Source: Xestospongia bergquistia (Eukaryota; Porifera; Demospongiae; Haplosclerida; Petrosiidae). Taken from it: DNA of 64,000 nucleotides. The position numbers and the translations under genes were made by a program. The stretch spans positions 1,552,501 to 1,616,500 of the forward strand of contig OZ014412.1 in the NCBI GenBank assembly GCA_963965975.1, read 5' to 3'. The notes under the pieces were generated by a model. That model was not told where the DNA came from, made no database searches, and worked only from the letters and a program-made list of their open reading frames with translations. Position 1 is the first letter of the stretch; every line of letters begins with the position of its first letter. This document shows, one piece after another, positions 674 through 63,720 of the stretch.

Positions 674-1073
674 GAGTAAATTACACAAGATCGGGCGGAT
701 CACTTTCGGCCGCCTCCCACAGGACAAACGTGCGAAAGAACGAACTTCTTTACCCTGCTACCATAAAGTATAATCCTTTACTTGTTTATTCTGATACCTT
801 TGATAATTTCTTATCTTTACTGTGCGGAGCAACAAAGTTTATAAAAAATATTTCGGGCACATGCGTAGGCGGACAACAATAATGTCAATTCGTACGAGTG
901 GCAAAACTCTTCTCACGATCAAGCAAACTGAGAAAGCTATGGCTGGCAGGATTGATTGATGACTGAACTACAACGCCATAGCCAAACCATTTCTTTCAGC
1001 AAGGAGTTTACGTCTCCAAAGAGCAAAAGATCTGAATGGGTGTGGACATGAGTATTCGGACACACCTTCATCA
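674..1073 (+). repeat. Left terminal inverted repeat
   Basis: About 400 bp matching the reverse complement of 5549-5950 with only a few differences, from GAGTAAATTACACAAGATCG to the ACACCTTCATCA end. It is more GC-rich than the surrounding DNA. A 73-residue open frame at 661-882 is an accident of the TIR, because the same frame appears at the other end. Confidence 0.9.
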
Positions 1074-1295
1074 ATGATGGTCTAGCTCTATAATTATTCA
1101 ACTGGTACGTTTATAGTCGTAATGGACACAACTGTCTTCTAATGGCTTTTGAAATGTAGAACTTTATACATCAAATAATTTAGAGTTTGCATGCAGTGCG
1201 CTGTGGTGTTAGAGATGGTGTATCTCAGTGATGTATGCAAGTTGAATGCAATGCTTGTCATTTGAGACTGCAGTCAAAAACCATTAATACAAAAA

Positions 1296-1558
1296 TTAAC
1301 AGTTTTCACAAACATAATTAAAGTCTTTTCTCTTGGCAACAGTGTATAATACATTGACACAACTGCAATGGTACCACTGCAGGCAATTTGAACAATTCAC
1401 CCAAGTGGTTGCCCTTGGATGAGCACAAGTTTTATGTAGGCAATTACTAACTAGAATAGAAACTATTAATGATAACTGGCCAATAAAATTCATTTCACCT
1501 CTAACACTTTTCTCCATTTCCTTAGATGTAGCTTTAAGAGTACAAGTGCCATAAGTGC
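1296..1558 (-). CDS. Last exon of the transposase: PHD-like zinc finger
   Basis: The exon begins after ATCTAG at 1559-1560 and first reads a mini-exon-like peptide (GTYGTCTLKATSKE). This shows that the terminal exon derives from the same repeat fused to a longer coding tail. It then encodes C-x4-C, C-x2-C, x4-H, x2-C and a final C-x2-C, the order expected of a PHD finger, and stops at 1296. The frame matches the mini-exons. PHD fingers usually read histone H3 tails; here it could guide chromatin targeting of the transposase (inference). Confidence 0.65.
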
Positions 1559-4500
1559 CTAGATAGTAATAGCAATTTGTGACAAAAACACTGACAAGTT
1601 AACATACCTGTTGATGAAGGTTCAGCAGTAGCTTTAGCACGTGTGAGACTACAAGTGCTATTAGTGCCTAGATAGTAATACCAACTTGTGACAGGAACAC
1701 TGACAACTTAACATACCTGTTGTTGAAGCTGTAGCTTTAGCACGAGTGAGACTACGAGTGCTATTAGTGCCTAGATAGTAATACCAATTTGTGACAGGAA
1801 CACTGACAACTTAACATACCTGTTGTTGAAGCTGTAGCTTTAGCATGAGTGAGACTACGAGTGCTATAAGTGCCTAGATAGTAATACCAATTTGTGACAG
1901 GAACACTGACAACTTAACATACCTGTTGTTGAAGCTGTAGCTTTAGCACGAGTGAGACTACGAGTGCTATAAGTGCCTAGATAGTAATACCAATTTGTGA
2001 CAGGAACACTGACAACTTAACATACCTGTTGTTGAAGCTGTAGCTTTAGCACGAGTGAGACTACGAGTGCTATTAGTGCCTAGATAGTAATACCAATTTG
2101 TGACAGAAACACTGACAAGTTAACATACCTGTTGATGAAGGTTCAGCAGTAGCTTTAGCACGTGTGAGACTACAAGTGCTATCAGTGCCTAGATAGTAAT
2201 ACCAATTTGTGACAGGAACACTAACAACTTAACATACCTGTTGTTGAAGCAGTAGCTTTAGCACGTGTGAGACTACGAGTGCTATTAGTGCCTAGATAGT
2301 AATACCAATTTGTGACAGAAACACTGACAAGTTAACATACCTGCTGATGAAGGTTCAGCAGTAGCTTTAGGACGTGTGAGACTACGAGTGCTATTAGTGC
2401 CTAGATAGTAATACCAATTTGTGACAGGAACACTGACAACTTAACATACCTGTTGTTGAAGCTGTAGCTTTAGCACGAGTGAGACTACGAGTGCTATAAG
2501 TGCCTAGATAGTAATACCAATTTGTGACAGAAGCACTGACAAGTTAACATACCTGTTGATGAAGGTTCAGCAGTAGCTTTAGGACGTGTGAGACTACGAG
2601 TGCTATCAGTGCCTAGATAGTAATACCAATTTGTGACAGAAACACTGACAAGTTAATATATTGTACCTGTTAAAGAAGAAGGTTCGGCAACAGCTTCAGC
2701 ACATGTGAGAGTAGTGGTAAATATATCAGAAAAAGTAGATTGGTAAAAACCTACAAGTGCAACTTTCCAGTACATGATTATTTATATAATACCGTAAATC
2801 TGGAATATTTCATGTTGAAAAATATTCACGTATTAAATTTTTTCTTTGATTTATTTTCGTATATTCCATTGTTCCACCATATTGCACATGCGCATAAATT
2901 AATATTTGCTTAAATAATTTTTGTACATCATCACAAGTACAAAAAATTACGTAATGACGAAATTCTCCTGATTTACGGTACCTTCATTAGAAATGTTTCC
3001 CAGTGATTGATTATCTCCAAAGATAGGAAGAAGCAAGCTACATGTACCAGTGCATGTTGTATGGTGTTACTTGACACTCACAATGCTTACCATCATCAAA
3101 GCTAGAATGCAATTGAGAACCTCTTCTACATGTTGAAGACTTTTCAAGGGGTGCACTTCCTATTATTAATAATACTAACACAAAAGGTCCTTTTTCTTAC
3201 GTTTATTCAATTTTTTAATCCTGGCTTGATCTAATGAGATATAAATGCGATTACATGTATTGGGATATCAACAATCTTACTTCTCTTCTCCTTTCGTTCA
3301 TCCCTTTTTCTCAGTTCTTCCTGCTTCTTCCTTTCCTTTTCTTCTATAGCTCTGAGATTCTCTTCACTAGTCAAAACTTTTCCACTATGTTTTGGTGGTA
3401 TAACTGGAAGTTTACAAAAGGGTACAGGTCTTTCTTCATTTATGACTTTTGAAAGAGTAGACGATCGTTGGAGATTGGCAGGGTGTTCAAATTGTTTTGG
3501 AGGAACATAGAGAAATGGAAGCATAGTATAGTCATTGCAAATACTCTTTTGAGACTGACAATTGAATACAGGTACCACTACTTGAAATGTATCGGGAGTG
3601 CAGGATGGATACATGTAAGGATTAAATGCAGGAACCAATGAATGTGTAGCCATATCACTGTTAACAAGTGTGATATCATGTGACAAAGGAGAACCTAGAT
3701 TGGCCTCTGGATTAACATCATTAGATGACTGATGCATTTCTTTCCATGAATTGTAACGATTATCAGAATCTATATCATAACCTTCTTCAAATCTTCTCTG
3801 AAAACGTAACTCTTCTTCCTGTGTGAATTCAGGAACAGCAGATCTGCGTTGTTGCCGCACAGGGCTATACAGTGGTATAAACTTCAACCCAGTGCGCTGT
3901 GCAAGAGTACTGGTGGTTGTATCTTTCACCAGTGGAACAATCATATCCCTCTTCAAGGGGTAAATCCCTGTACACTTGAAACCAGCCTGAATATTTTTTA
4001 AAGTCATTGAATGCATCCATGCTTCACCAAACAATTTGGAAAACGTGAACCTGCTAACAACCTTCCCAGGATTGTCAGCCAAAAACTTCCGACACACTTC
4101 CTTCCAAGAGGTTTTTAATGGACCAAATGGGCCCTTATCTAGTGGTTGTGTTTCATGTGATGAATGAGGTGGTAGACAGAAAATTATCACTTTCTCCTCA
4201 GCAGCTTTACTGATAACTGAAGGATTGTAATGTGATGAGTGGCCATCTAGTAATAGGAGTAGAGGACGAGCAGCAGGAGCATGAGGCAAAAAGTGATGTA
4301 CAAACCATAAATCAAATAATTCACTAGTTATCCACCCTGAATCTGAGAGACCATACATAGTCCCAGGGACCTCACCATCACACATTGCTGGTCTAAGACA
4401 TTTCCTGTCAAACAGCACAAAAGGTGGCAAACAATATCCAGCAGCATTACAACAAGCAAGGACAGTCATCTGGGTTTTATTTCCCGTTGTTACTGCTCTC

Positions 4501-5310
4501 GGATGTTTGATACCTTTAGCCACTATGCCCTTTGGAAACTTTGGATTGAGAGGCATTCCCGTTTCGTCGCAATTAAATATCTGATTAGGTTTTGAAACAA
4601 GGTCATTATCCAGAACTGTCTGCTCTAGTAAATCAAAGTAATTACTTAATACATCAAGAGTGCATGCTGCTGCACGATTATTGGCAAGTTGCTCAGTGGT
4701 CCGAAGTGAAATTTCGGAATGCCGCTTCTTAAAACCTTCCCACCACCCACTGGACACTGTTACATTTTTGCCTTTTTGGTTAACTGCAATTTGAACTAAT
4801 GACAAGACTTCCTTTCTTGTTCGTGGGAATCCAATCTTTGCTGTTTCCAAAATAAAGGATACCAACTCTTCTTCTTCACTTTCTGTCAAATACCTTTGAC
4901 CACTTTTACTACCACTTATTACCTTTCCGGACACGTGATCTTGTAGCGTAGATTTGGGTATTTGGTACTCCTCTGCTGCTTGTCTAATAGATATGCCATC
5001 TTTAACAGCACTGCATGCAAATTCTAAATCGCTTAATGTCCAAGTCCTATATTTTGTAGGCCGAGTAGAAGACGATGGAATAATAGATGTTGAGCAAAAT
5101 ATACGTTCACATAAGGGAAGTGTTTTGTCCTTTACGACTAGATAAAATAATTATAATAACACAAACATTGACAAGTTAACATACTTGTTGATGAAGAAGT
5201 AACTTTAGCATGAGTGAGACTATGAATGCTACTAGTATCTAGATAATAATTAATAGTAACATAAACACTAGTAAGTTAAACATACCTGTTAATGTATAAC
5301 CTTCAGCCAT
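1296..5310 (-). CDS. DDE transposase with tandem-exon linker and PHD finger
   Basis: Modelled exons, all joined in phase 1: 5286-5310 (start MAEGYTLT), 5185-5238, 3281-5137 (main), candidates 3091-3159 and 2982-3014, 2667-2750, ten mini-exons between 2612 and 1608, and 1296-1558. The sum is 2949 nt, about 982 aa. Domains: a psq-type HTH at about residues 58-95 (TWTLSDLEFACSAV, RQAAEEYQIPKSTLQDH); a CENP-B-type HTH following (YLTESEEEELVSFILE); and a DDE nuclease with Asp in NCDETG (about 217), LLLLDGHSSH (about 324) and ETQPLDKGPF (about 360). The last exon encodes a Cys4-His-Cys3 PHD-like finger (VNCSNCLQWYHCSC ... VCENC). The main exon alone stays open to a stop at 3231, but a GTAAGA donor at 3280 in the same phase as all other junctions favours splicing onward. 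The main exon's frame is open upstream of the GTG at 4934 and continues to an ATCTAG acceptor at 5138. Transposase identity is firm; the spliced C-terminus is inferred. Confidence 0.8.
1608..2612 (-). repeat. Tandem array of ten frame-preserving mini-exons
   Basis: Ten copies of a 103- or 109-bp repeat. Each contains a CTATCTAG acceptor, a mini-exon and a CAG|GTATGTTAA donor. Exons are 2553-2612, 2341-2400, 2129-2188, 1608-1667 (60 nt) and 2450-2503, 2238-2291, 2026-2079, 1923-1976, 1820-1873, 1717-1770 (54 nt). Every intron between them is exactly 49 nt. Read in phase 1 each exon is open and encodes an 18- or 20-residue Ser/Thr/Ala-rich repeat of the type GTNSTRSLTRAKATASTT or GTNSTCSLTRAKATAEPSST. 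They lie between the catalytic exon and the PHD-finger exon of the transposase gene, so they would form a flexible linker. A related 54-nt exon sits near the gene's start (5185-5238). Confidence 0.85.
2667..2750 (-). CDS. Probable diverged 84-nt exon before the mini-exon array
   Basis: This segment is bounded by a CTTGTAG acceptor and an ACAG|GTACAA donor and is open in phase 1. Its 3' half is recognisably a relative of the 60-nt mini-exon (AEAVAEPSSLT against AKATAEPSST). It is the likely first member of the array. Two further phase-1 candidates upstream (3091-3159, 69 nt; 2982-3014, 33 nt) have weaker support. Confidence 0.5.
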
Positions 5311-5340
5311 AGCTTTAGAGAGTGACCACATTAAGAGACC

Positions 5341-5535
5341 ACGTTGACAGCAAAGGCTAGCAAAGGCCACAATGAGAGCAACAACCACGTTGAGAGCAAA
5401 TGCCACAATGAGAGTGAACACGTTGAGAGTAAAGACCACAATGACGTTGAGAGCAAAGTTAAAGGTGAGAATGAGAGCAATAATGAGAGCAATAGCCAAT
5501 TTGAGAGCAAAGTGCAAACACGTTGAGCCACGTTG
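5341..5535. repeat. Minisatellite near the transposase start
   Basis: Irregular repeats of a 9-18 bp core such as GTTGAGAGCAAA and AATGAGAGCAA lie between the right TIR and the first transposase exon. In the transposase frame this tract stays open upstream to 5586 and would encode a hydrophobic Leu/Ala-rich peptide. I prefer the start at 5310 because the upstream part is low-complexity repeat. Confidence 0.6.
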
Positions 5536-5548
5536 AGGCACGCTACAC

Positions 5549-5950
5549 TGATGAAGGTGTGTCCGAATACTCATGTCCACACCCATTCAGATCTTTTGCT
5601 CTTTGGAGACGTAAACTCCTTGCTGAAAGAAATGGTTTGGCTATGGTGTTGTAGTTCAGTCATCAATCAATCCTGCCAGCCATAGCTTTCTCAGTTTGCT
5701 TGATCGTGAGAAGAGTTTTGCCACTCGTACGAATTGACATTATTGTTGTCCGCCTACGCATGTGCCCGAAATATTTTTTATATAAACTTTGTTGTTCCGC
5801 ACAGTAAAGATAAGAAATTATCAAAGGTATCAGAATAAACAAGTAAAGGATTATACTTTATGGTAGCAGGGTAAAGAAGTTCGTTCTTTCGCACGTTTGT
5901 CCTGTGGGAGGCGGCCGAAAGTGATCCGCCCGATCTTGTGTAATTTACTC
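5549..5950 (-). repeat. Right terminal inverted repeat
   Basis: Inverted partner of 674-1073. It lies immediately upstream of the transposase start and so probably carries the transposase promoter as well as the transposase binding sites, which is the usual arrangement in such elements (inference). Confidence 0.9.
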
Positions 5951-6345
5951 TATGTATGTATGTATACCTATAAGTATGATAGTATGCTACTTGCATGTGT
6001 ATCGTCATTGTATTATGGATGTTTGGGTATATCGATCAATTACTACATGACAAAGGAAATTATATATATATATGTAATATCAATGTATAGAATGAGGAAA
6101 TAATATTTTAATAATTATGTGTATGAAATATAGATTGAATCTTTTAGAGAACATAAATATATGATTTATATCTGTGACTAATAGATACATACAAATATAT
6201 TGTAACTAGCTAATATTAACATGATCATGGAAAGTTGAGTAAGATGATTAACTGTACAAAGTCTAAGTATGTAAAATATGATAATAATTTAGCAGGTTAT
6301 GAGAAATACAAATTTAATTAGGTGTGGTTATTGTTTGTAGTATCC

Positions 6346-11509: not shown

Positions 11510-13542
11510 TTACCTATTGTCATTGTGTGTCCTGCCAGGGTGTTCATTTAACTTAATAATAGATTGGTAGTGTTTTTTGATATGCCACTGCATCAAACAG
11601 AAGCCCCACCCAAAGACAGCAAACAAAATCATTACTGTTAGTAAGACCACTAGTATAGAGACAGTAGCCTTCACTTTGAGAGATTCAAAAGGTTTAATAG
11701 TTGGCATAACATTGTCTATATAGAGAAGGAAACATGTTATTAATGTTAATGTGGTATTATATATATAAGTCAGCTAGGTGGCTATTAGCTGTATAGTAGT
11801 ATTCTATACACTGTCCTACAAAACAATTGATGTCTTGTAGAGTTCCCTGTAATAACAACACCAAATAGCTAGATATATAAGCCACATCAAATTGGTCTGA
11901 TAAAATAAGCATATAATAGAAGTAACCATGACAACAGTTATTGGTTATCCACTTTGTCATACATAGACAATTACCTGTTGTTGTAGAGCTGGTGATGGCA
12001 AAAGAATGAGTTAGAACAGTTGTTATTAGAAGTGTTGATGTAACTGTTAGAGTATTAAGTGAAGTAATGTTATCAGTTGCTAAGGATGAGGTAGAGCTAT
12101 ATACAAATGTTGATGAAGTACTCTTAGAACTGTCTGTGAAATGTGATGATGTACCTATACTACTAGACAATAGCTTGTTGCTAAGTGTGAAAGATTGTGA
12201 AAGAGACAGTAAGGTTGACTGTGAGGAAAACAATAAGAGAGACTGTGAGGGAGACAGTGAAGGAGACAGTAAGACAGATTGTGAAGGAGACAATGAGGAA
12301 GACTTTGAGGGAGATGGTATAGAAGACTGTGAGAAGGTTGGTGAAGGAGATGGAGAGGAAATTGCTGGTTCTTCTGTGGATTAGAAAAGAGACTACTATA
12401 TCAGTTGATCATGAACTGGAAGTAAAAACAATATCTGTAAGAATACTATATATTGTAAGAGTAGATTAACTACAATACAAATTAAAGGTACAAATCTTGC
12501 CAGCTGTTTTAAACCACATATTGCTATTAATATAACGTGTAGATAATGTTAAATAAAATTCCCATAAATTGTTAAAGGACTTCCTAGCATGTATGAATAG
12601 TGTTATTTAACAATTATATTAAGAATATTTCATGACTTGTAGTCATTTTCTAGTCAAAAACTGTGCTTTGACTTTTTATTGATACAAGATACAAGTCTTG
12701 TCAGACATTTTAAACCACTATTGAAAGGGCTTCCTAGTATGTATGAGTAGTATTTCTTACATAATAATTATATTGAGATATTTCATTACTTTTATTCATT
12801 GTCTAGTCAGAAACTGTACCTTGAATTTTTATTGCAAGCATTTGTTATTAAATATTAATGATAGATGGACAGATAGGTAAATGGAGTTATTGATGAATAA
12901 ATGATACATGAATGGATGAATGAATATATAAAATAGATTTCTAACCTTTCACAACTTCTATCATTATGGCTTCGCTGTACACTTCAAAGACTTGCTTAAA
13001 ATTCCATAAAGAATTCTCCTCTCCTTGCAGTTCTGATTTACATTGGAACACGTACATACCAACTTTATGAAATGTAACAGTCAAATTATAAACAATAGGA
13101 CCTTTTAAGATACTGTCCTCATCATTGCATTGAATCAAACTTAGACAATTAGTGGTACAAGAATCGTTAGCTAAATATTGTCTTTTGTTTACACTCTCAA
13201 CAAAAGGATTATTAGAATATTCTGTGTTATTATACAGCCACTTTAAACTGCCACATATACTCTGACATTGAAAGTCCAATGTTGTATCTACTACAACTTT
13301 GAGTTGATAGTTGTTGCTTGGGATAGTAACAATAGCTGTGAAAAGAAGTTTAAAATGAAGATGTTATTATATTAAGTTCTTTACTATGTAAACAAACTAA
13401 TGCTATTATACTAACCTGCATCTCCAAACTTTAACATATTATTACGACACACATCAATATTAATATCAGTAGCAGAGGGCATAGAACATTTGATAAGAGC
13501 AACCAGCAACAAAAGTGATCTCCTAAACTTGATTGAAGCCAT
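11510..13542 (-). CDS. Receptor gene A2 (frameshifted short tail)
   Basis: Exons 13416-13542 (signal peptide), 12946-13335 (Ig-like), 11975-12373 (stalk) and 11510-11715 (membrane and tail) give about 373 aa. The Ig-like exon has FQC, KWLYNN and the distal GMYVFQC, plus three further cysteines. The stalk is 399 nt, the longest of the A genes, dominated by Ser, Pro, Leu and Thr. The membrane helix is SILVVLLTVMILFAVFGWGF followed by HIKKH. An indel shifts the tail frame, so it ends at TAA (11510). The sibling tail frame remains open from 11547 to 11341 (GYNSLY in place of GYNPLY), a relic of the longer tail. The upstream TATA box of the other copies is missing. B2 just downstream is dead. Confidence 0.72.
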
Positions 13543-22232: not shown

Positions 22233-24480
22233 CTAGAATGAGTTAGCCATCTCTTGTCTGTTCTCAAGACTGTTACAGTCTATTACATAAGTATTGGTAA
22301 TCACTCCATTGTTGGCTGTCTCAGCTGTGATTGGACTGGTGATTAAAAGGAATGATGGTGAATTAATATAGAGAGGATTATAGCCGTGTGGATGGACTCT
22401 CTTACCCTTTGTCATTGTATTCGTTGATGTCCTGCTGGAGTCAGAGATTGCATCTGAGTCACTGCATTGGTTGTGTTTTTTGATACGCCACTGCAAAAAA
22501 CAGAAGCCCCACCCAAAGACAGCAAACAAAGTCATTACTGTTAGTAAGACCACTAGTATAGAGACAGTAACCTTCACTTGGGGAGACTCAAAAGGTTGAA
22601 TAGTTGGCATAACATTGTCTATATAGAGAAGGAACAAGTTATTGAAAATAATGTGGTATTATATACTCTAGCTACTAATTCATCTAATTATAATTAGGGC
22701 TGTGTAAAATGATATTGTAAGGTTTAAGTTGTAATTTTGGTTTCTCATATGTAGTAAGTAAAGTGACAAATATATATTATGTACATTGAGTTACAAACAA
22801 TACATATAATATGGTATATTGTTAATACATATAAGCCATTCAATAGTGTACACAACATAGTTCTAAGCCACAGAAAAGCAAATGTAATATATATGTGTTT
22901 ACAATAATCAAGATGTGTGTTAATGTTTACAAATTCTAGATGTCTTCAAAATATTGGCATGTAGGCCATCTAGGTGGCTATTAGCTCCACAATACACACT
23001 GTCTATAAACAATTGATGCTTTGTAGAGTTTCCTATATAACCACACCAATATAGCTAGTTGAGATATATATGCCACATCAAAGTGGTCTGATAATACAAG
23101 TATACATTAGATGTAACCATGACAACAGTTATTGGTTATCCACTTTGTCATACATAGACAATTACCTGTTATTGTAGAGCATGGGATGGTAGGAGAATGA
23201 GTTAGAACAATTGTTTTTAAAAGTGTTCTTGTAACAGTATTAAGTGAAATAATGTCATTAGTTGCTAAGGATGAGGTGAACAAAGGACTCTTCAATCCAT
23301 CTGTGAAATGTGATGTGTCTATACTACTAGATGATAGCTTGTTGGTATGTGTCAGAGACTGTGAGGGAGACAGTGAGGGAGAAAGTGAGGGAGAAAGTGA
23401 AGGAGATTGTGAGGGAGACAATGAAGGAGACTGCGAGGAGGTTGGTGAAGGAGATGGAGAGGAGATTGCTGGTTCATCTGTGAATGACAAAAGAGACTAT
23501 AGTAGATCAGTTGATCATGAGCTGAAATTCTTGAAAGTAGTAATAATATCTGCGAGAATACTATACATTGTAAGAGTGGATTGACTACAATACAAAGTAA
23601 AGGTACAAATCTTGTCAGCTGTTTTAAACCACATATTGCTATTAATATAAAGTGTGTGTTCTATTACATAAAATTCCCATGTGTTATGAAAGAGCTTCCT
23701 TGTAAGTGTGACTAGTATTTCTCACATAATAATTATATCAAAGATATTTCATTACTTGTGTTCACTGTCTAGTCAGAAACTATACCTTGACTTTTTATTT
23801 CATGCATTTGCTATTAAATAATGGTAGATGTACAAACATGCAGATGGAGTTATGGATAATGAATGTATAAAATAGATTTCTAACCTTTCACAACTTCTAT
23901 CATTATGGCTTTGCTGTACACTTCAAAGACTTGATTAAAATTCCATAAAGAATTCTCCTCTCCTTGCATTTCTGATTTACATTGGAACATGTACATACCA
24001 ACTTTGTGAAATGTAACAGTCAAATTATAAATGATAGGACCTTTTAAGATACTGTTCTCATCATTGCATTGAAGCAAGCTTGGACAATTAGTGGTACAAG
24101 GATCATTAGCTAAATATTGTCTTTTGTTTACACTCTCAACAAAAGGATTATTGGAATATTCTGTGTTATTGTACAGCCACTTTAAACTACCACATACACT
24201 CTGACATTGAAAGTCCAAAGTTGTATTTACTACAACTTTAAGTTGATAGTTGTTGCTTGGGATAGTAACAATAGCTGTGAAAAGAAGTTAAAATGAAGAT
24301 ATTATTATATTAAGTTCTCTACTATGTAATCAAACTAATGTTATTATACTAACCTGCATCTCTAAACTTTTCTATATTATTACGACACACATCAATATTA
24401 ATATCAGTAGCAGAGGTCATAGAACATTTGATAAGAGCAACCAGCAACAAAAGTGATCTCCTAAACTTGATTGAAGGCAT
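22233..24480 (-). CDS. Receptor gene A3 (full-length, long tail)
   Basis: Exons 24354-24480 (signal peptide), 23885-24274 (Ig-like, 130 codons), 23166-23477 (stalk, 104 codons) and 22233-22618 (membrane and tail) give about 404 aa. The Ig-like exon shows the core Cys (LDFQCQSVC), Trp (LKWLYNN) and distal GMYMFQC, with three extra Cys (DPCTTNC, LQCND). The stalk is almost entirely Ser, Pro and Thr (repeats of SLSPSQSP). The helix SILVVLLTVMTLFAVFGWGF is followed by basic RIKKH and a tail of about 80 residues with GYNPLYIN, which contains an NPxY motif of the kind that binds PTB domains or acts in endocytosis. A TATA box at 24517-24526 and an AATAAA (22151-22156, reverse strand) about 80 bp after the stop support a complete gene. 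This and A7 are the best A models. Confidence 0.8.
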
Positions 24481-33923: not shown

Positions 33924-35935
33924 TTAGTTGCATTTTTTGATACGCCACTGCAAAAAACAGAAGCCCCACCCAAAGACAGCAAACAAAGTCATTACTGTTA
34001 GTAAGACCACTAGTATAAAGACAGTAGCCTTCACTTGGGGATATTCAAAAGGTTGAATAGTTGACATAACATTGTCTATATAGAGAAGGAACAAGTTATT
34101 AAAAATAATGTGGTATCATATACTCTAGCTACTAATTCATCTAATTATAATTAGGGCTGTGTAAAATGATATTGTAAGGTTTAAGTTGTAATTTTGGTTC
34201 TTCATATGTAGTAAGTAAAGTGACAAATATATATTATGTACATTGAGTTACAAACAGTACATATAAAATGGTATATTGTTAATACATATAAGCCATTCAA
34301 TAGTGTACACAACATAGTTCTAAGCCACAGAAAAGCAAATGTAATATATATGTGTTTACAATAATCAAGATGTGTGTTAATGTATACAAATTCTAGATGT
34401 CTTCAAAATATTAGCATGTAGGCCAGCAAGGTGGCTATTAGCTGCACAATACATACTATACTAATGATGCTTTGTAGAGTTTCCTATAATAACTACACCG
34501 ATATAGCTAGTTGAGATATATATGCCACATCAAAGTGGTCTGATAATACAATTATACATTAGAAGTAACCATGACAACAGTTATTGGTTATCCACTTTGT
34601 CACACATAGACAATTACCTGTTATTATAGAACATGGGATGGTAGGAGAACGAGTTAGAACAATTGTTTTAAAAAGTGTTCTTGTAACAGTATTAAGTGAA
34701 ATAATGTCATTAGTTGCTAAGGATGAGGTGAACAAAGTACTCTTTGATTCATCTGTGAAATGTAATGTGTCTATACTACTAGATGATAGCTTGTTGGTAT
34801 GTGTGAGAGACTGCGAGAGAGACAGTAAGGAAGGCTGTGAGGGAGAAAGTGAAGGAGATTGTGAGGGAGACAGTGATGGAGACTTCGAGGAGGTTGGTGA
34901 AGGAGATGGAGAGGGAATTGCTGGTTCATCTGTGAATGACAAAAGAGACTAGTAGATCAGTTGATCATGAGCTGTAATTCTTGGAAGTAGAAAATAATAT
35001 CTGTGAGAATACTATACATTGTAAGAGTGGATTGACTACAATACAAATTAAAGGTACAAAGGCTTGTCAGCTATTTTAAACCAAGTATTGCTATTAATAT
35101 AAAATATGTATTATATTACATAAAATTCCCATGTGTTATGAAAGGGCTTCCTTGTAAGCATGACTAGTATTTCTCACATAATAATTAAATCAAAGATATT
35201 TCATTACTTGTGTTCACTGTCTAGTCAGAAACTGTACCTTGACCTTAATTTCATGCATTTACTATTAAATATTAATGGTAGATGGACAAACATGCAGATT
35301 GAGTTATGGATAATGAATGTATAAAATAGATTTCTAACCTTTCACAACTTCTATCATTATGGCTTTGCTGTACACTTCAAAGACTTTATTAAAATTCCAT
35401 AAAGAATTCTCCTCTCCTTGCATTTCTGATTTACATTGGAACACATACATACCAACTTTATGAAATGTAACTGTCAAATTGTAAATGATAGGACCTTTTA
35501 AGATACTGTTCTCATCATTGCATTGAATCAAACTTGGACAATTAGTGGTACAAGGATCATTAGCTAAATATTGTCTTTTGTTTACACTCTCAACAAAAGG
35601 ATTATTGGAATATTCTGTGTTATTATGCAGCCACTTTAAACTGCCACATATACTCTGACATTGAAAGTCCAATGTTGTATCTACTACAACTTTAAGTTGA
35701 TAGTTGTTGCTTGGGATAGTAACAATAGCTGTGAAAAGAAGTTTAAAATGAAGATGTTATTATATTAAGTTCTTTACTATGTAAACAAACTAATGTTCTT
35801 GTACTAACCTGCATCTCCAAACTTTTCTATATTATTACGACACACATCAATATTAATATCAGTAGCAGAGGTTAGAGAACATTTGATAAGAGCAACCAGC
35901 AACAAAAGTGATCTCCTAAACTTGATTGAAGACAT
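33924..35935 (-). CDS. Receptor gene A4 (tail-less form)
   Basis: Exons 35809-35935, 35339-35728, 34618-34929 and 33924-34075 give about 326 aa. Signal peptide, Ig-like domain and stalk are intact and very close to A3. After the helix the reading frame ends RIKKCN and then TAA, where A3 and A7 read through Gln. A 7-nt deletion and a 1-nt deletion further on in the former tail (the latter inside the NPLY codons) show that it is no longer under coding constraint. A TATA box is at 35973-35982 and AATAAA lies downstream. The product would be a receptor or decoy without a signalling tail (inference). Confidence 0.75.
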
Positions 35936-45191: not shown

Positions 45192-46323
45192 TCACTCCAT
45201 TGTTGGCTGTCTCAGCTGAGATTGGACTGGTGAATTAATATAGAGAGGATTATAGCTGTGTAGATGGACTCTCTTACCCTTTGTCATTATATCCGTTGAT
45301 GTCCTGCTGGAGTCAGAGATTGCATCTGAGTCATTGCATTGGATGCTTTTTTTGATATGCCACTGCAAAAAACAAAAGCCCTACCCAAAGACAGCAAACA
45401 AAGTCATTACTGTTAGTAAGACCACTAGTATAGAGACAGTAACCTTCACTTGGGGAGACTCAAAAGGTTGAATAGTTGGCATAACATTGTCTATATAGAG
45501 AAGGAACAAGTTATTGAAAATAATGTGGTATACTCTAGCTACTAATTCATCTAATTATAATTAGGGCTGTGTAAAATGATATTGTAAGGTTTAAGTTGTA
45601 ATTTTGGTTTCTCATATGTAGTAAGTAAAGTGACAAATATATATTATGTACATTGAGTTACAAACAGTACATATAATATGTTATATTGTTAATACATATA
45701 AGCCATTCAATAGTGTACAAAACATAGTTCTAAGCCACAGTAAAGCAAATGTAATATATATGTGTTTACAGTAATCAAGATTGTGTTAATGTTTATAAAT
45801 GCTAGTTCTCTTCAAAATATTAGCATGTAGGCCAGCTAGGTGGCTATAATACATACTGTCCTATAAAACAATTGATGCTTTGTAGAGTTTCCTATATAAC
45901 CACACCAATATAGCTAGTTGAGATATATATGCCACATCAAAGTGGTCTGATAATACAAGTATACATTAAAAGTAACCATGACAACAGTTATTGGTTATCC
46001 ATTTGTCATACATAGACAATTACCTGTTATTATAGAGCATGGGATGGTAGGAGAATGAGTTAGAACAATTGTTTTTAAAAGTGTACTTGTAACAGTATTA
46101 AGTGAAATAATGTCATTAGTTGCTAAGGATGAGGTGAACAAAGTACTCTTCAATTCATCTGTGAAATGTGATGTGTCTATATTACTAGATGATAGCTTGT
46201 TGGTATGTGTGAGAGACTGTGAGGGAGATATTGAGGGAGAAAGCGAAGGAGGTTGTGAGGGAGACAGTGAAGGAGACTGTGAGGAGGTTGGTGAAAGAGA
46301 TGGAGAGGAAATTGATGGTTCAT
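45192..46323 (-). pseudogene. Receptor gene A5, lacks signal and Ig-like exons
   Basis: Only the stalk exon (46024-46323, 300 nt, open) and the membrane/tail exon (45192-45490) remain. The tail keeps HSYNPLYINS, but a deletion then shifts the frame to an early TGA. Beyond the stalk exon, sequence similar to intron 2 of the siblings stops near 46415 and is joined to spacer sequence (ACAAGATCACACCTTGTATACAG), so exons 1 and 2 and the promoter are deleted. There is no start codon in a signal-peptide context, so it is probably silent, although the two exons themselves look well preserved. Confidence 0.75.
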
Positions 46324-53874: not shown

Positions 53875-55884
53875 TTAGTTGTGTTTTTTGATACGCCACT
53901 GCAAAAAACAGAAGCCCCACCCAAAGATAGCAAACAAAGTCATTACTGTTAGTAAGACCACTAGTATAGAGACAGTAACCTTCACTTGGGGAGACTCAAA
54001 AGGTTGAATAGTTGGCATAACATTGTCTATATAGAGAAGGAACAAGTTATTGAAAATAATGTGGTATCATATACTCTAGCTACTAATTCATCTAATTATA
54101 ATTAGGGCTGTGTAAAATGATATTGTAAGGTTTAAGTTGTAATTTTGGTTTCTCATATGTAGTAAGTAAAGTTACAAATATATATTATGTACATTGTGTT
54201 ACAAACAGTACATATAATATGATATATTGTTAATACATATAAGCCATTCAATAGTGTACAAAACATAGTTCTAAGCCACAGAAAAGCAAATATAATATAT
54301 ATGTGTTTACAATAATCAAGGTGTGTGTCAATGTTTACGAGTGCTAGATGTCTCCAAAATATTGGCATGTAAGCCAGCTAGGTGGCTATTAGCTACACAA
54401 TACATACTGTCCTATGATGCTTTGTAGAGTTTCCTATATAACCACACCAATATAGCTAGTTGAGATATATATGCCACATCAAAGTGGTCTGATAATACAA
54501 GTATACATTTGATGTAACCATGACAACAGTTATTGGTTATCTACTTTGTCATACATAGACAATTACCTGTTATTATAGAACATGAGATGGTAGAAGTATG
54601 AGTTAGAACAATTTTTTTTAAAAGTGTTGTTGTAACAGTATTAAGTGAAATAATATCATTAGTTGCTAAGGATGAGGTGAACAAAGGATTCTTTGATCCA
54701 TCTGTGAAATGTAATGTGTCTATACTACTAGATGATGGCTTGTTGGTATGTGTGAGAGACTGCGAGGGAGACAGTGAGGAAAGCTGTGAGGGAGAAAGTG
54801 AAGGAGATTGTGAGGGAGACAGTGATGGAGACTTCGAGGAGGTTGGTGAAGGAGATGGAGAGGGAATTGCTGGTTCATCTGTGGATTAGAAAAGAGACTA
54901 GTGATCAGTTGATCATATGCTGAAATACTTGGAAGTAGAAAATAATATCTGTGAGAATACTATACATTGTAAGAGTGGATTGACTACAATACAAAGTAAA
55001 GGTACAAAGGCTTGTCAGCTATTTTAAACCACATATTGCTATTAATATAAAGTGTGTATTATATTACATAAAATTCCCATGTGTTATGAAAGGGCTTCCT
55101 TGTAAGTGTGACTAGTATTTCTCACATGATAATTATATCAAAGATATTTCATTACATGTCTTCACTGTCTCGTCAGAAACTGTACCTTGATCTTTTATTT
55201 CATGCATTTACTATTAAATATTAATGGTAGATGGACAAACATGTAGATGGAGTTATGGATAATTAATGCATAAAATAGATTTCTAACCTTTCACAACTTC
55301 TATCAATATGGGTTTGCTGTATACTTCAAAGACTCTATCAAAATTCCATAAAGAATTCTCCTCTCCTTGCATTTCTGATTTACATTGGAACATATACATA
55401 CCAACTTTATGAAATGTAACAGTCAAATTGTAAATGATAGGACCTTTTAAGATACTGTCCTCATCATTGCATTGAATCAAACTTGGACAATTAGTGGTAC
55501 AAGGATCATTAGCTAAATATTGTCTTTTGTTTACACTCTCAACAAAAGGATTATTGGAATATTCTGTATTATTATGCAGCCACTTTAAACTACCACATAC
55601 ACTCTGACATTGAAAGTCCAATGTTGTATCTACTACAACTTTAAGTTGATAGTTGTTGCTTGGGATAGTAACAATAGCTGTGAAAAGAAGTTTAAAATGA
55701 AGATGTTATTATATTAAGTTCTTTACTATGTAAACAAACTAATGTTCTTGTACTAACCTGCATCTCCAAACTTTTCTATATTATTACGACACACATCAAT
55801 ATTAATATTAGTAGCAGAGGTCAGAGAACATTTGATAAGAGCAACCAGCAACAAAAGTGATCTGCTAAACATGATTAAAGGCAT
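53875..55884 (-). CDS. Receptor gene A6 (tail-less form)
   Basis: Exons 55758-55884, 55288-55677, 54567-54878 and 53875-54026 give about 326 aa, the same length as A4. The reading frame ends RIKKHN and then TAA at exactly the A4 position (both read AACTAAAGCA where the long-tail genes read AACCAATGCA). The old tail frame downstream is still open with GYNPLYIN, so here the stop is the main lesion. The donor-like GGTAAGAG found in the other tails is GCTAAGAG here. A TATA box (55924-55933) and a downstream AATAAA are present. Confidence 0.75.
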
Positions 55885-61546: not shown

Positions 61547-63720
61547 CTAGAGTGAGCTAGCCATCTCTTGTCTGTTCTCAGGGCTGTTACAGTCTATTAC
61601 ATAAGTATTGGTAATCACTCCATTGTTGGTCGTCTCGACTGAGATTGGACTGGTGATTAAAGGGGATGATGGTGAATTAATATAGAGAGGATTATAGCCG
61701 TGTGGATGGACTCTCTTACCCTTTGTCATTGTATCCATTGATGTCCTGCTGGAATGAGAGACTGCATCTGAGTCATTGCATTGGTTGTGTTTTTTGATAC
61801 GCCACTGCAAAAAACAGAAGCCCCACCCAAAGACAGCAAACAAAGTCATTACTGTTAGTAAGACCACTAGTATAGAGACAGTAACCTTCACTTGGGGAGA
61901 CTCAAAAGGTTGAATAGTTGGCATAACATTGTCTATATAGAGAAGGAACAAGTTATTAAAAATAATGTGGTATCATATACTCTAGCTACTAATTCATCTA
62001 ATTATAATTAGGGCTGTATAAAATGATATTGTAAGGTTTAAGTTGTAATTTTGGTTTCTCATATGTAGTAAGTAAAGTGACAAATATATATATATATTAT
62101 GTACATTGAGTTACAAACAGTACATATAATATGGTATATTGTAAATACATATAAGCCATTCAATAGCGTAGTTCTAAGCCACAGTAAAGCAAATGTAATA
62201 TATATGTGTTTACAATAATCAAGATGTGTGTCAAATGCTAGATCTCTTCAAAATATTGGCATGTAGGCCAGCTAGGTGGCTATTAGCTGCACAATACATA
62301 CTGTCCTATAAAACAATTGATGCTTTGTAGAGTTTCTTATATAACCACACCAATATAGCTAGTTGAGATATATATGCCACATCAAAGTGGTCTGATAATA
62401 CAAGTATACATTAGAAGTAACCATGACAACAGTTATTGGTTATCCACTTTGTCATACATAGACAATTACCTGTTATTATAGAACATGGGATGGTAGGAGA
62501 ATGAGTTAGAACAATTGTTTTTAAAAGTGTTCTTGCAACAGTATTAAGTGAAATAATGTCATTAGTTGCTAAGGATGAGGTGAACAAAGGACTCTTCAAT
62601 TCATCTGTGAAATGTAATGTGTCTATATTACTAGATGATAGCTTGTTGGTATGTGTGAGAGACTGCGAGGGAGATATTGAGGGAGAAAGCGAAGGAGATT
62701 GTGAGGGAGACAGTGAAGTAGACTGCGAGGAGGTTGGTGAAAGAGATGGAGAGGAAATTAATGGTTCATCTGTGAATGACAAAAGAGACTAGTAGATCAG
62801 TTGATCATGAGCTGAAATTCTTGGAAGTAGTAATAATATCTGTGAGAATACTATACATTGTAAGAATGGATTGACCACAATACAAACTAAAGGTACAAAT
62901 CTTGTTAGCTGTTTTAAACCACTATTAATATAAAGTGGATACATAAAATTCCCATGTGTTATGAAAGGGCTTCCTTGTAAGTGTTTCATTACTTGTGTTC
63001 ACTGTCTAGTCAGAAACTGTACCTTGACCTTAATTTCATGCATTTGCTATTAAATATTAATAGTAGATGTACAAACATGCAGATTGAGTTATGGATAATG
63101 AATGTATAAAATAGATTTCTAACCTTTCACAACTTCTATCATTATGGGTTTGCTGTACACTTCAAAGACTTTATTAAAATTCCATAAAGAATTCTCCTCT
63201 CCTTGCATTTCTGATTTACATTGGAACACGTACATACCAACTTTATGAAATGTAACAGTCAAATTATAAACGATAGGACCTTTTAAGATACTGTCCTCAT
63301 CATTGCATTGAATCAAACTTAGACAATTAGTGGTACAAGGATCATTAGCTAAATATTGTCTTTTGTTTACACTCTCAACAAAAGGATTATTATAATATTC
63401 TGTGTTATTATACAGCCACTTTAAACTACCACATACACTCTGACATTGAAAGTCCAATGTTGTATCTACTACAACTTTAAGTTGATAGTTGTTGTTTGGG
63501 ATAGTAACAATAGCTGTGAAAAGAAGTTTAAAATAAAGATGTTATTATATTAAGTTCTTTACTATGTAAACAAACTAATGTTATTATACTAACCTGCATC
63601 TCCAAACTTCTTGATATTATTACGACACATATCAATATTAATATTAGTAGCAGAGATCAGAGAACATTTGATAAGAGCAACTAACAACAAAAGTGATCTG
63701 CTAAACATGATTGAAGGCAT
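61547..63720 (-). CDS. Receptor gene A7 (full-length, long tail)
   Basis: Exons 63594-63720 (signal peptide MPSIMFSRSLLLLVALIKC), 63124-63513 (Ig-like), 62470-62769 (stalk, 100 codons) and 61547-61932 (membrane and tail) give about 400 aa. Introns are 80, 354 and 537 nt. The Ig-like exon has six cysteines, the core Trp (LKWLYNN) and distal GMYVFQC. The stalk is Ser/Pro-rich. The helix SILVVLLTVMTLFAVFGWGF is followed by RIKKH and a tail with GYNPLYIN and a second tyrosine in TYVIDC. A TATA box is at 63751-63761 and AATAAA (61466-61471, reverse strand) lies about 75 bp past the stop. The tail lacks the premature stop of A4 and A6. Predicted plasma-membrane receptor; ligand unknown. Confidence 0.8.

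Follow-up and report, generated by a model that had tools for sequence, protein, structure and literature searches.

What is a tandem array of ten short exons, each repeated together with an intron, doing inside the transposase gene of a DNA transposon? The question arises from the window, by which we mean the whole 64-kb stretch of DNA analysed, where an earlier note had read the repeats at 1608–2612 as frame-preserving mini-exons. We conclude that the locus probably encodes a pogo-type transposase joined to a PHD finger through a linker made up of mini-exons that are symmetric (phase 1-1) and predicted to be spliced, and that the array is best read as a frame-proof, fast-turnover flexible linker holding a histone-reader-like finger to the transposase.

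The element occupies positions 674–5950 on the minus strand (5277 bp). It is flanked by a TA target-site duplication (672–673 and 5951–5952) and is bounded by terminal inverted repeats of ~400 bp (left, 674–1076; right, 5546–5950), which were located by a repeat search and by comparison of copies. The catalytic exon matches DDE_1 of Pfam (E 5e-21), HTH_psq (30.5 bits, against a cut-off of 20.4) and HTH_Tnp_Tc5 (23 against 22.2). Its catalytic triad, with positions chosen by motif, is D, D, D with spacings of 106 and 35 residues (DD35D). Judged by the DDE_1 nuclease, the HTH domains, the TA duplication and the inverted repeats, the element is of the pogo type. The DDE_1 and HTH domains, the TA duplication and DD35D are common to it and to the pogo superfamily (IS630-Tc1-mariner), whereas the ~400-bp inverted repeats, the 15 exons, the PHD finger and the mini-exon array set it apart. 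Fifteen copies of this family, called family A here, are present in the genome, including the window copy. TA is found at both ends in 12 of the 15; one end departs from TA in L045 and in L052, and for L043 no right end could be located. In a nested pair (L048/L049, C1:3806608–3817132), one copy is inserted into the other at TA, so that the target duplication is directly visible. To judge by its near-identical copies, the transposon seems to have been active recently. A search for relatives in viral contigs gave 21 pattern matches, none of which was confirmed.

The predicted gene model of the window copy has 15 exons on the minus strand and a frame of 2847 nt (948 aa plus the stop) free of internal stops, with all internal junctions in phase 1 and all introns of the GT-AG class. 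In addition to the parts described in the earlier note, the model contains an exon with the ATG (exon 1, 5286–5310), a 54-nt unit-like mini-exon 5′ of the catalytic exon (exon 2, 5185–5238) and a diverged exon that opens the linker (exon 4, 2667–2750). A 92-nt stretch around exon 2 is 83% like an array unit. The catalytic exon (exon 3, 3281–5137), identified by Pfam, the gene model and dN/dS, carries both HTH domains, DDE_1 and DD35D and ends at 3281, with a GT donor at 3280–3279. The last exon (1296–1558), identified by Pfam and by matches to solved structures, starts at 1558 and carries a PHD-like finger and the stop. Both of these junctions are in phase 1.

Between the catalytic exon and the finger, TRF reports a tandem repeat at 1537–2660, with a period of 103 (10.7 copies) or 212 (5.3 copies). 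Repeat parsing and the gene model resolve the region 1608–2612 into ten minus-strand exons, four of 60 nt and six of 54 nt. In the order of transcription, these are mini-exons 1 (2553–2612, 60 nt), 2 (2450–2503, 54 nt), 3 (2341–2400, 60 nt), 4 (2238–2291, 54 nt), 5 (2129–2188, 60 nt), 6 (2026–2079, 54 nt), 7 (1923–1976, 54 nt), 8 (1820–1873, 54 nt), 9 (1717–1770, 54 nt) and 10 (1608–1667, 60 nt). The nine introns between them are each exactly 49 nt, with the acceptor CTATCTAG and the donor GTATGTTA. The ten exon-plus-intron units proposed in the earlier note are therefore real, and the phase 1-1 symmetry that it had claimed for them, shared with the catalytic donor and the PHD acceptor, holds in the gene model. 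Because the units are whole-codon in length and all junctions are in phase 1, a unit can be lost, gained, skipped or exchanged without a frame shift. The peptides encoded by the mini-exons contain 20–50% Ser plus Thr, compared with 15% in the catalytic exon, carry a net positive charge in eight of the ten cases and have fewer hydrophobic residues than the catalytic exon. Composition, Pfam and structure matches thus agree with a variable Ser/Thr-rich linker between nuclease and PHD-like finger, as had been suggested. No array of similar period was found elsewhere in the 64-kb window, the longest period outside the element being 60.

The copies of family A reveal that unit number differs between insertions by whole units. 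Specifically, there are 12 units in L047, 11 in each of L039, L040, L041, L042 and L043, ten in the window copy, L044, L045, L046, L050 and both members of the nested pair, nine in L051 and six in L052. Over the 15 copies, after removal of three stray matches outside the arrays (74, 51 and 51 nt), we counted 152 array exons (86 of 54 nt and 66 of 60 nt) with no stop and no frameshift, and all 137 introns are 49 nt. Frame-breaking indels are absent from the exons and the introns of these arrays alike. Gene models are fully open, with 9–12 units, in 10 of the 14 copies that make up the model set, from which the outer nested copy was left out; L043, the 5′ part of which was not located, could not be modelled. 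In L046, L050 and L052, the catalytic exon differs in length by an amount that changes the frame, whereas the lengths of the array exons are preserved. The earlier expectation that units could be gained, lost or skipped without breaking the protein is borne out as regards unit number, with the frame unbroken in every array exon at 6, 9, 10, 11 and 12 units; its other half, the joining of exons by splicing, found no convincing spliced copy in six junction searches. In the search for spliced copies of family A (up to two mismatches), two exon-junction matches were obtained, about the chance level by our own arithmetic, and searches with the junctions of families B, C, D, F and G (up to three mismatches) gave none. 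Spliced retrocopies were accordingly dropped as a proof of splicing.

Arrays of this kind extend beyond family A. A transposase search yielded 88 matches, the least similar with 47% identity, from 69 of the 648 candidates scored, and a finger search yielded 102 matches in the genome; the other families described here are a sample of these matches. In families other than A, TRF was run on 29 linker stretches and detected a tandem array in 27; many of the 29 are copies of a single family. TRF found no array in L029 and L031, nor in L054, which lies outside the 29 and consists largely of a C copy's catalytic region. Eight further array types (B–I) sit at the same place as the family A array and are built of different units, which takes the array reading further than the earlier note had done. 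In family B, the exon is mostly 66 nt and the intron mostly 49 nt; in C they are 72 and 54 nt, in E 60 and 50 nt, and in F 57 and 46–49 nt. The 248-nt unit of family D comprises a pair of exons, mostly of 90 and 51 nt, and introns of 52 and 55 nt. In family G, exons of 57 or 81 nt go with introns of 43 or 45 nt; in its array (L056), the 57/81-nt exons and the 45/43-nt introns are intermixed, forming a 226-nt higher-order pattern. Two types have a thin basis, namely H (exon 54 nt, intron 42 nt), with 3.7 units by TRF and three parsed, one of them with a stop, and I (exon 93 nt, intron 44 nt), which is defined by a TRF consensus only.

Array exons are readable in phase 1 in all families A–I. We parsed 324 exons of families A–H, from 15 copies of A, three loci of B (without L064 and L066), five of C (without L024), seven of D (without L065), one of the four of F and single loci of E, G and H; the D patterns used for this count were stricter than in an earlier parse of D, and some units were missed. 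Seven of the 324 are out of frame (six in C and one in D), and six of whole-codon length contain a stop (three in B and one each in C, D and H). In 313, phase 1 is free of stops, and every family has at least one alternative frame that no unit leaves open.

To place the exons independently of the frame, we took one TRF consensus unit per family and picked the best-scoring intron of 40–60 nt per unit, frame-blind. The splice-site weights were general background values, the 40–60 nt range was set after family A had been seen, and the strand was taken from the gene. A whole-codon exon open in phase 1 resulted in eight of the nine families, in D with both exons; family C failed. In 2000 first-order resamplings per unit, carried out for eight families with the two-intron family D left out, the rate of success was 13% for A, 12% for B, 2% for C, 4% for E, 6% for F, 4% for G, 9% for H and 3% for I. 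The product of the rates of the seven tested successes is about 5 or 6 in a billion if the families are independent, which is doubtful because of their common descent. The exon-like layout of the arrays is more than chance.

The strongest rival holds that a neutral minisatellite captured an exon, that slippage changes its size harmlessly since the exons are symmetric, and that its length has no function. It bears directly on selection. Between families A and B, the catalytic exon has a dN/dS of 0.13 and similarity extends as far as the residues encoded at the phase-1 donor; by this ratio, the exon is constrained between the two families. The corresponding pN/pS is 0.71 among nine intact family A copies, which differ little, and is 0.62 between two B fingers. 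Within the arrays, the dN/dS test suggested in the earlier note gave no sign of amino-acid constraint. Values of pN/pS between units are mostly near or above 1. This is so for B (1.2), C (0.98), E (1.35), F (1.1) and G (4 or undefined); A is split between 0.63 for its 54-nt and 8.5 for its 60-nt exons, and the two D exons give 0.54 and 0. In a wrong-frame control, the true frame had the lowest pN/pS in only one of ten exon sets (D, 51 nt). Purifying selection within the arrays was thus not found in most families, the wrong-frame ratios being as low or lower. Nor, F apart, are the measured introns more variable than the exons: variability is equal in A, lower in the introns of B and C, far lower in those of E and G, and mixed in F. 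The arrays thus hold to the frame but only loosely to the amino-acid sequence, a pattern that speaks against a sequence-specific role and that either a flexible tether or neutral filler would be expected to show.

Further points in favour of a neutral array are that unit number ranges freely from 6 to 12 within family A, and that blastn finds no match between the units of A and those of B, while the units of the remaining families look unlike by eye. Against it, arrays recur at one and the same position, being present in 27 of the 29 stretches examined beyond family A, with the qualification that these are related by descent and many belong to one family. A neutral origin must also explain why linkers have repeatedly been cut into repeated symmetric exons in the sampled families. 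We regard neutral expansion as a serious contender, with something approaching an even chance of being correct.

A second rival supposes that the mini-exons are normally skipped or act as regulatory decoys, the product being either a direct catalytic–PHD join or a short isoform that ends at 3231. Full skipping would be in frame, as the catalytic donor and the PHD acceptor are both in phase 1, and the catalytic reading frame, if left unspliced, does continue to a stop at 3231. Yet exons that are never translated should not stay open, as 313 of the 324 do in phase 1 with another frame closed everywhere, and the sequences of A and B, alike before the donor, are unlike by eye past it. We therefore consider this rival unlikely. 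That the array is instead a cis element of transposase-binding or enhancer repeats, its exon look being coincidental, is very improbable: internal tandem repeats are common in transposons and the introns of some arrays are strongly homogenised, but the frame-blind test is positive in nearly all families, the units differ between families with no shared motif evident (by inspection, as distinct from a motif search), and the array lies between coding exons.

Under the preferred reading, in which the array is a translated linker, the mini-exons would encode a flexible, Ser/Thr-rich and mostly basic tether of variable length that runs from the nuclease to the finger. Unequal exchange or slippage during copying may remove, add or swap units, gap repair after transposition being one possible occasion for it.

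The finger at the far end of this putative tether falls just short of the Pfam PHD cut-off of 24 in A (22.5); the fingers of B (21.1 and 20.4), F (23.2) and G (19) also score below it, and only that of D (26.3) scores above. The best solved match of the family A finger is BPTF (E 1e-4), followed by KDM5B (3e-4) and then by ARID4, DIDO and KDM5A. Several of these fingers are known readers of methylated H3K4. By analogy with them, the PHD finger probably binds histone H3 tails; by reading these tails, it may bring the transposase to open chromatin. The family B finger (L055:1435–1605) is of a different subtype, with ING, YNG and their kin making up the best 20 of 29 solved matches (ING1, E 1.7e-16). 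The transposases of the sister families A and B are 67–69% identical, while their fingers are BPTF-like (window 1296–1559) and ING-like, respectively. A plausible acceptor, picked with the frame known, makes the finger exon readable in phase 1 in families A, D, E, F and G, and the same holds for three of four B copies. In the E copy a stop interrupts the finger, and the finger pattern had no match in three C loci or in one I locus. In a chimeric element (L064/L068, C4:2491900–2497000), the catalytic region is ~44–51% like those of A and B, and the 3′ part, including the linker array, is of the B type, with 87% DNA identity to family B. This chimera suggests that 3′ modules are exchanged at times.

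A broader proposal is that this group of transposons uses intronised, frame-proof exon arrays to tether the nuclease to a histone reader, with both the length and the splicing of the tether adjustable, that each family renews its own array by amplification, and that uniform phase-1 introns let linker and PHD modules swap between families, which would adjust the choice of targets or the evasion of host control. We put this forward tentatively, and lean towards doubting it in this full form.

PHD fingers have been described in other DNA transposons. Ginger1 (PMC2836005) likewise encodes one, and the RAG2-like protein of TransibVDJ (PMC4411706) likewise has a PHD finger from a DNA transposon; from the accessible parts of these papers, both belong to superfamilies other than that of the pogo-type element. 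Ginger1 has 0–4 introns, and the accessible part of PMC2836005 does not mention a tandem exon array. In the main text of a 2020 paper on pogo elements (PMC7386202), as far as accessible, the words PHD, intron, exon, tandem, sponge and Amphimedon do not occur. Among the matches listed in our literature search, the scope of which left subscription papers and Repbase reports mostly outside, there was no report of tandem exon arrays in a transposase, or of a pogo element or transposase with a PHD finger.

The tandem exon-plus-intron layout as such is not new and is known from host genes. The accessible text of PMC2576457 describes tandem exon-plus-intron arrays with concerted evolution in SmPoMuc mucins of Schistosoma, SOWgp of Coccidioides and spider silk genes, where, as here, an exon and its flanking intron form one head-to-tail unit in variable number. 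In the window array, too, exon and intron are repeated head to tail in symmetric phase. As in families E and G, introns of spider silk genes are more homogenised than the exons, according to the same text. The systems differ in that SmPoMuc, SOWgp and the silks are host genes, as that text presents them, whereas the arrays here belong to a transposon's own transposase in several families, and in that the units here are ~96–248 nt, compared with the ~1-kb repeats given there for SmPoMuc. A layout known from mucin and silk host genes thus recurs in a selfish element, in several families of one genome. Schistosome micro-exons can be skipped without harming the frame and are not known to form a homogenised tandem array. 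According to the accessible part of a paper on them (PMC10526429), micro-exon genes also have short exons, of 3–81 bp, but have long introns and encode secreted proteins, whereas the array introns here are 49 nt and the product is a transposase.

With their differing unit numbers, the copies of the element amount to natural replicas, which makes the effect of linker length and exon number on a transposase directly testable; the same copies make the growth and shrinkage of exon arrays testable as directly. If the ING-like and BPTF-like fingers were swapped in, exon shuffling would have been caught in the act within a transposon group.

Three observations of other repeats were made along the way. 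In family H, beside the exon array, a 30-nt in-frame repeat encoding GLDDTEIDNV lies upstream of the PHD finger (L059:1438–1557) and is intronless. Copies placed in family D on the basis of their finger reappear on a single strand in steps of mostly ~65–225 kb, and such serial D-like copies extend over long stretches of the seven contigs C4, C5, C6, C7, C10, C13 and C15, as though the element belonged to large segmental repeats arranged in tandem, possibly centromeric. In the window itself, a 12/24-nt GAGACAGTGAGG repeat is found at 12197–12314, 23355–23468, 34807–34884, 46213–46290, 54752–54839 and 62659–62730, at a spacing of 8–11 kb, and other short repeats recur at ~31.7, 43.2 and 51.6 kb; the stretch that bears the GAGACAGTGAGG repeats looks like a tandemly duplicated gene cluster.
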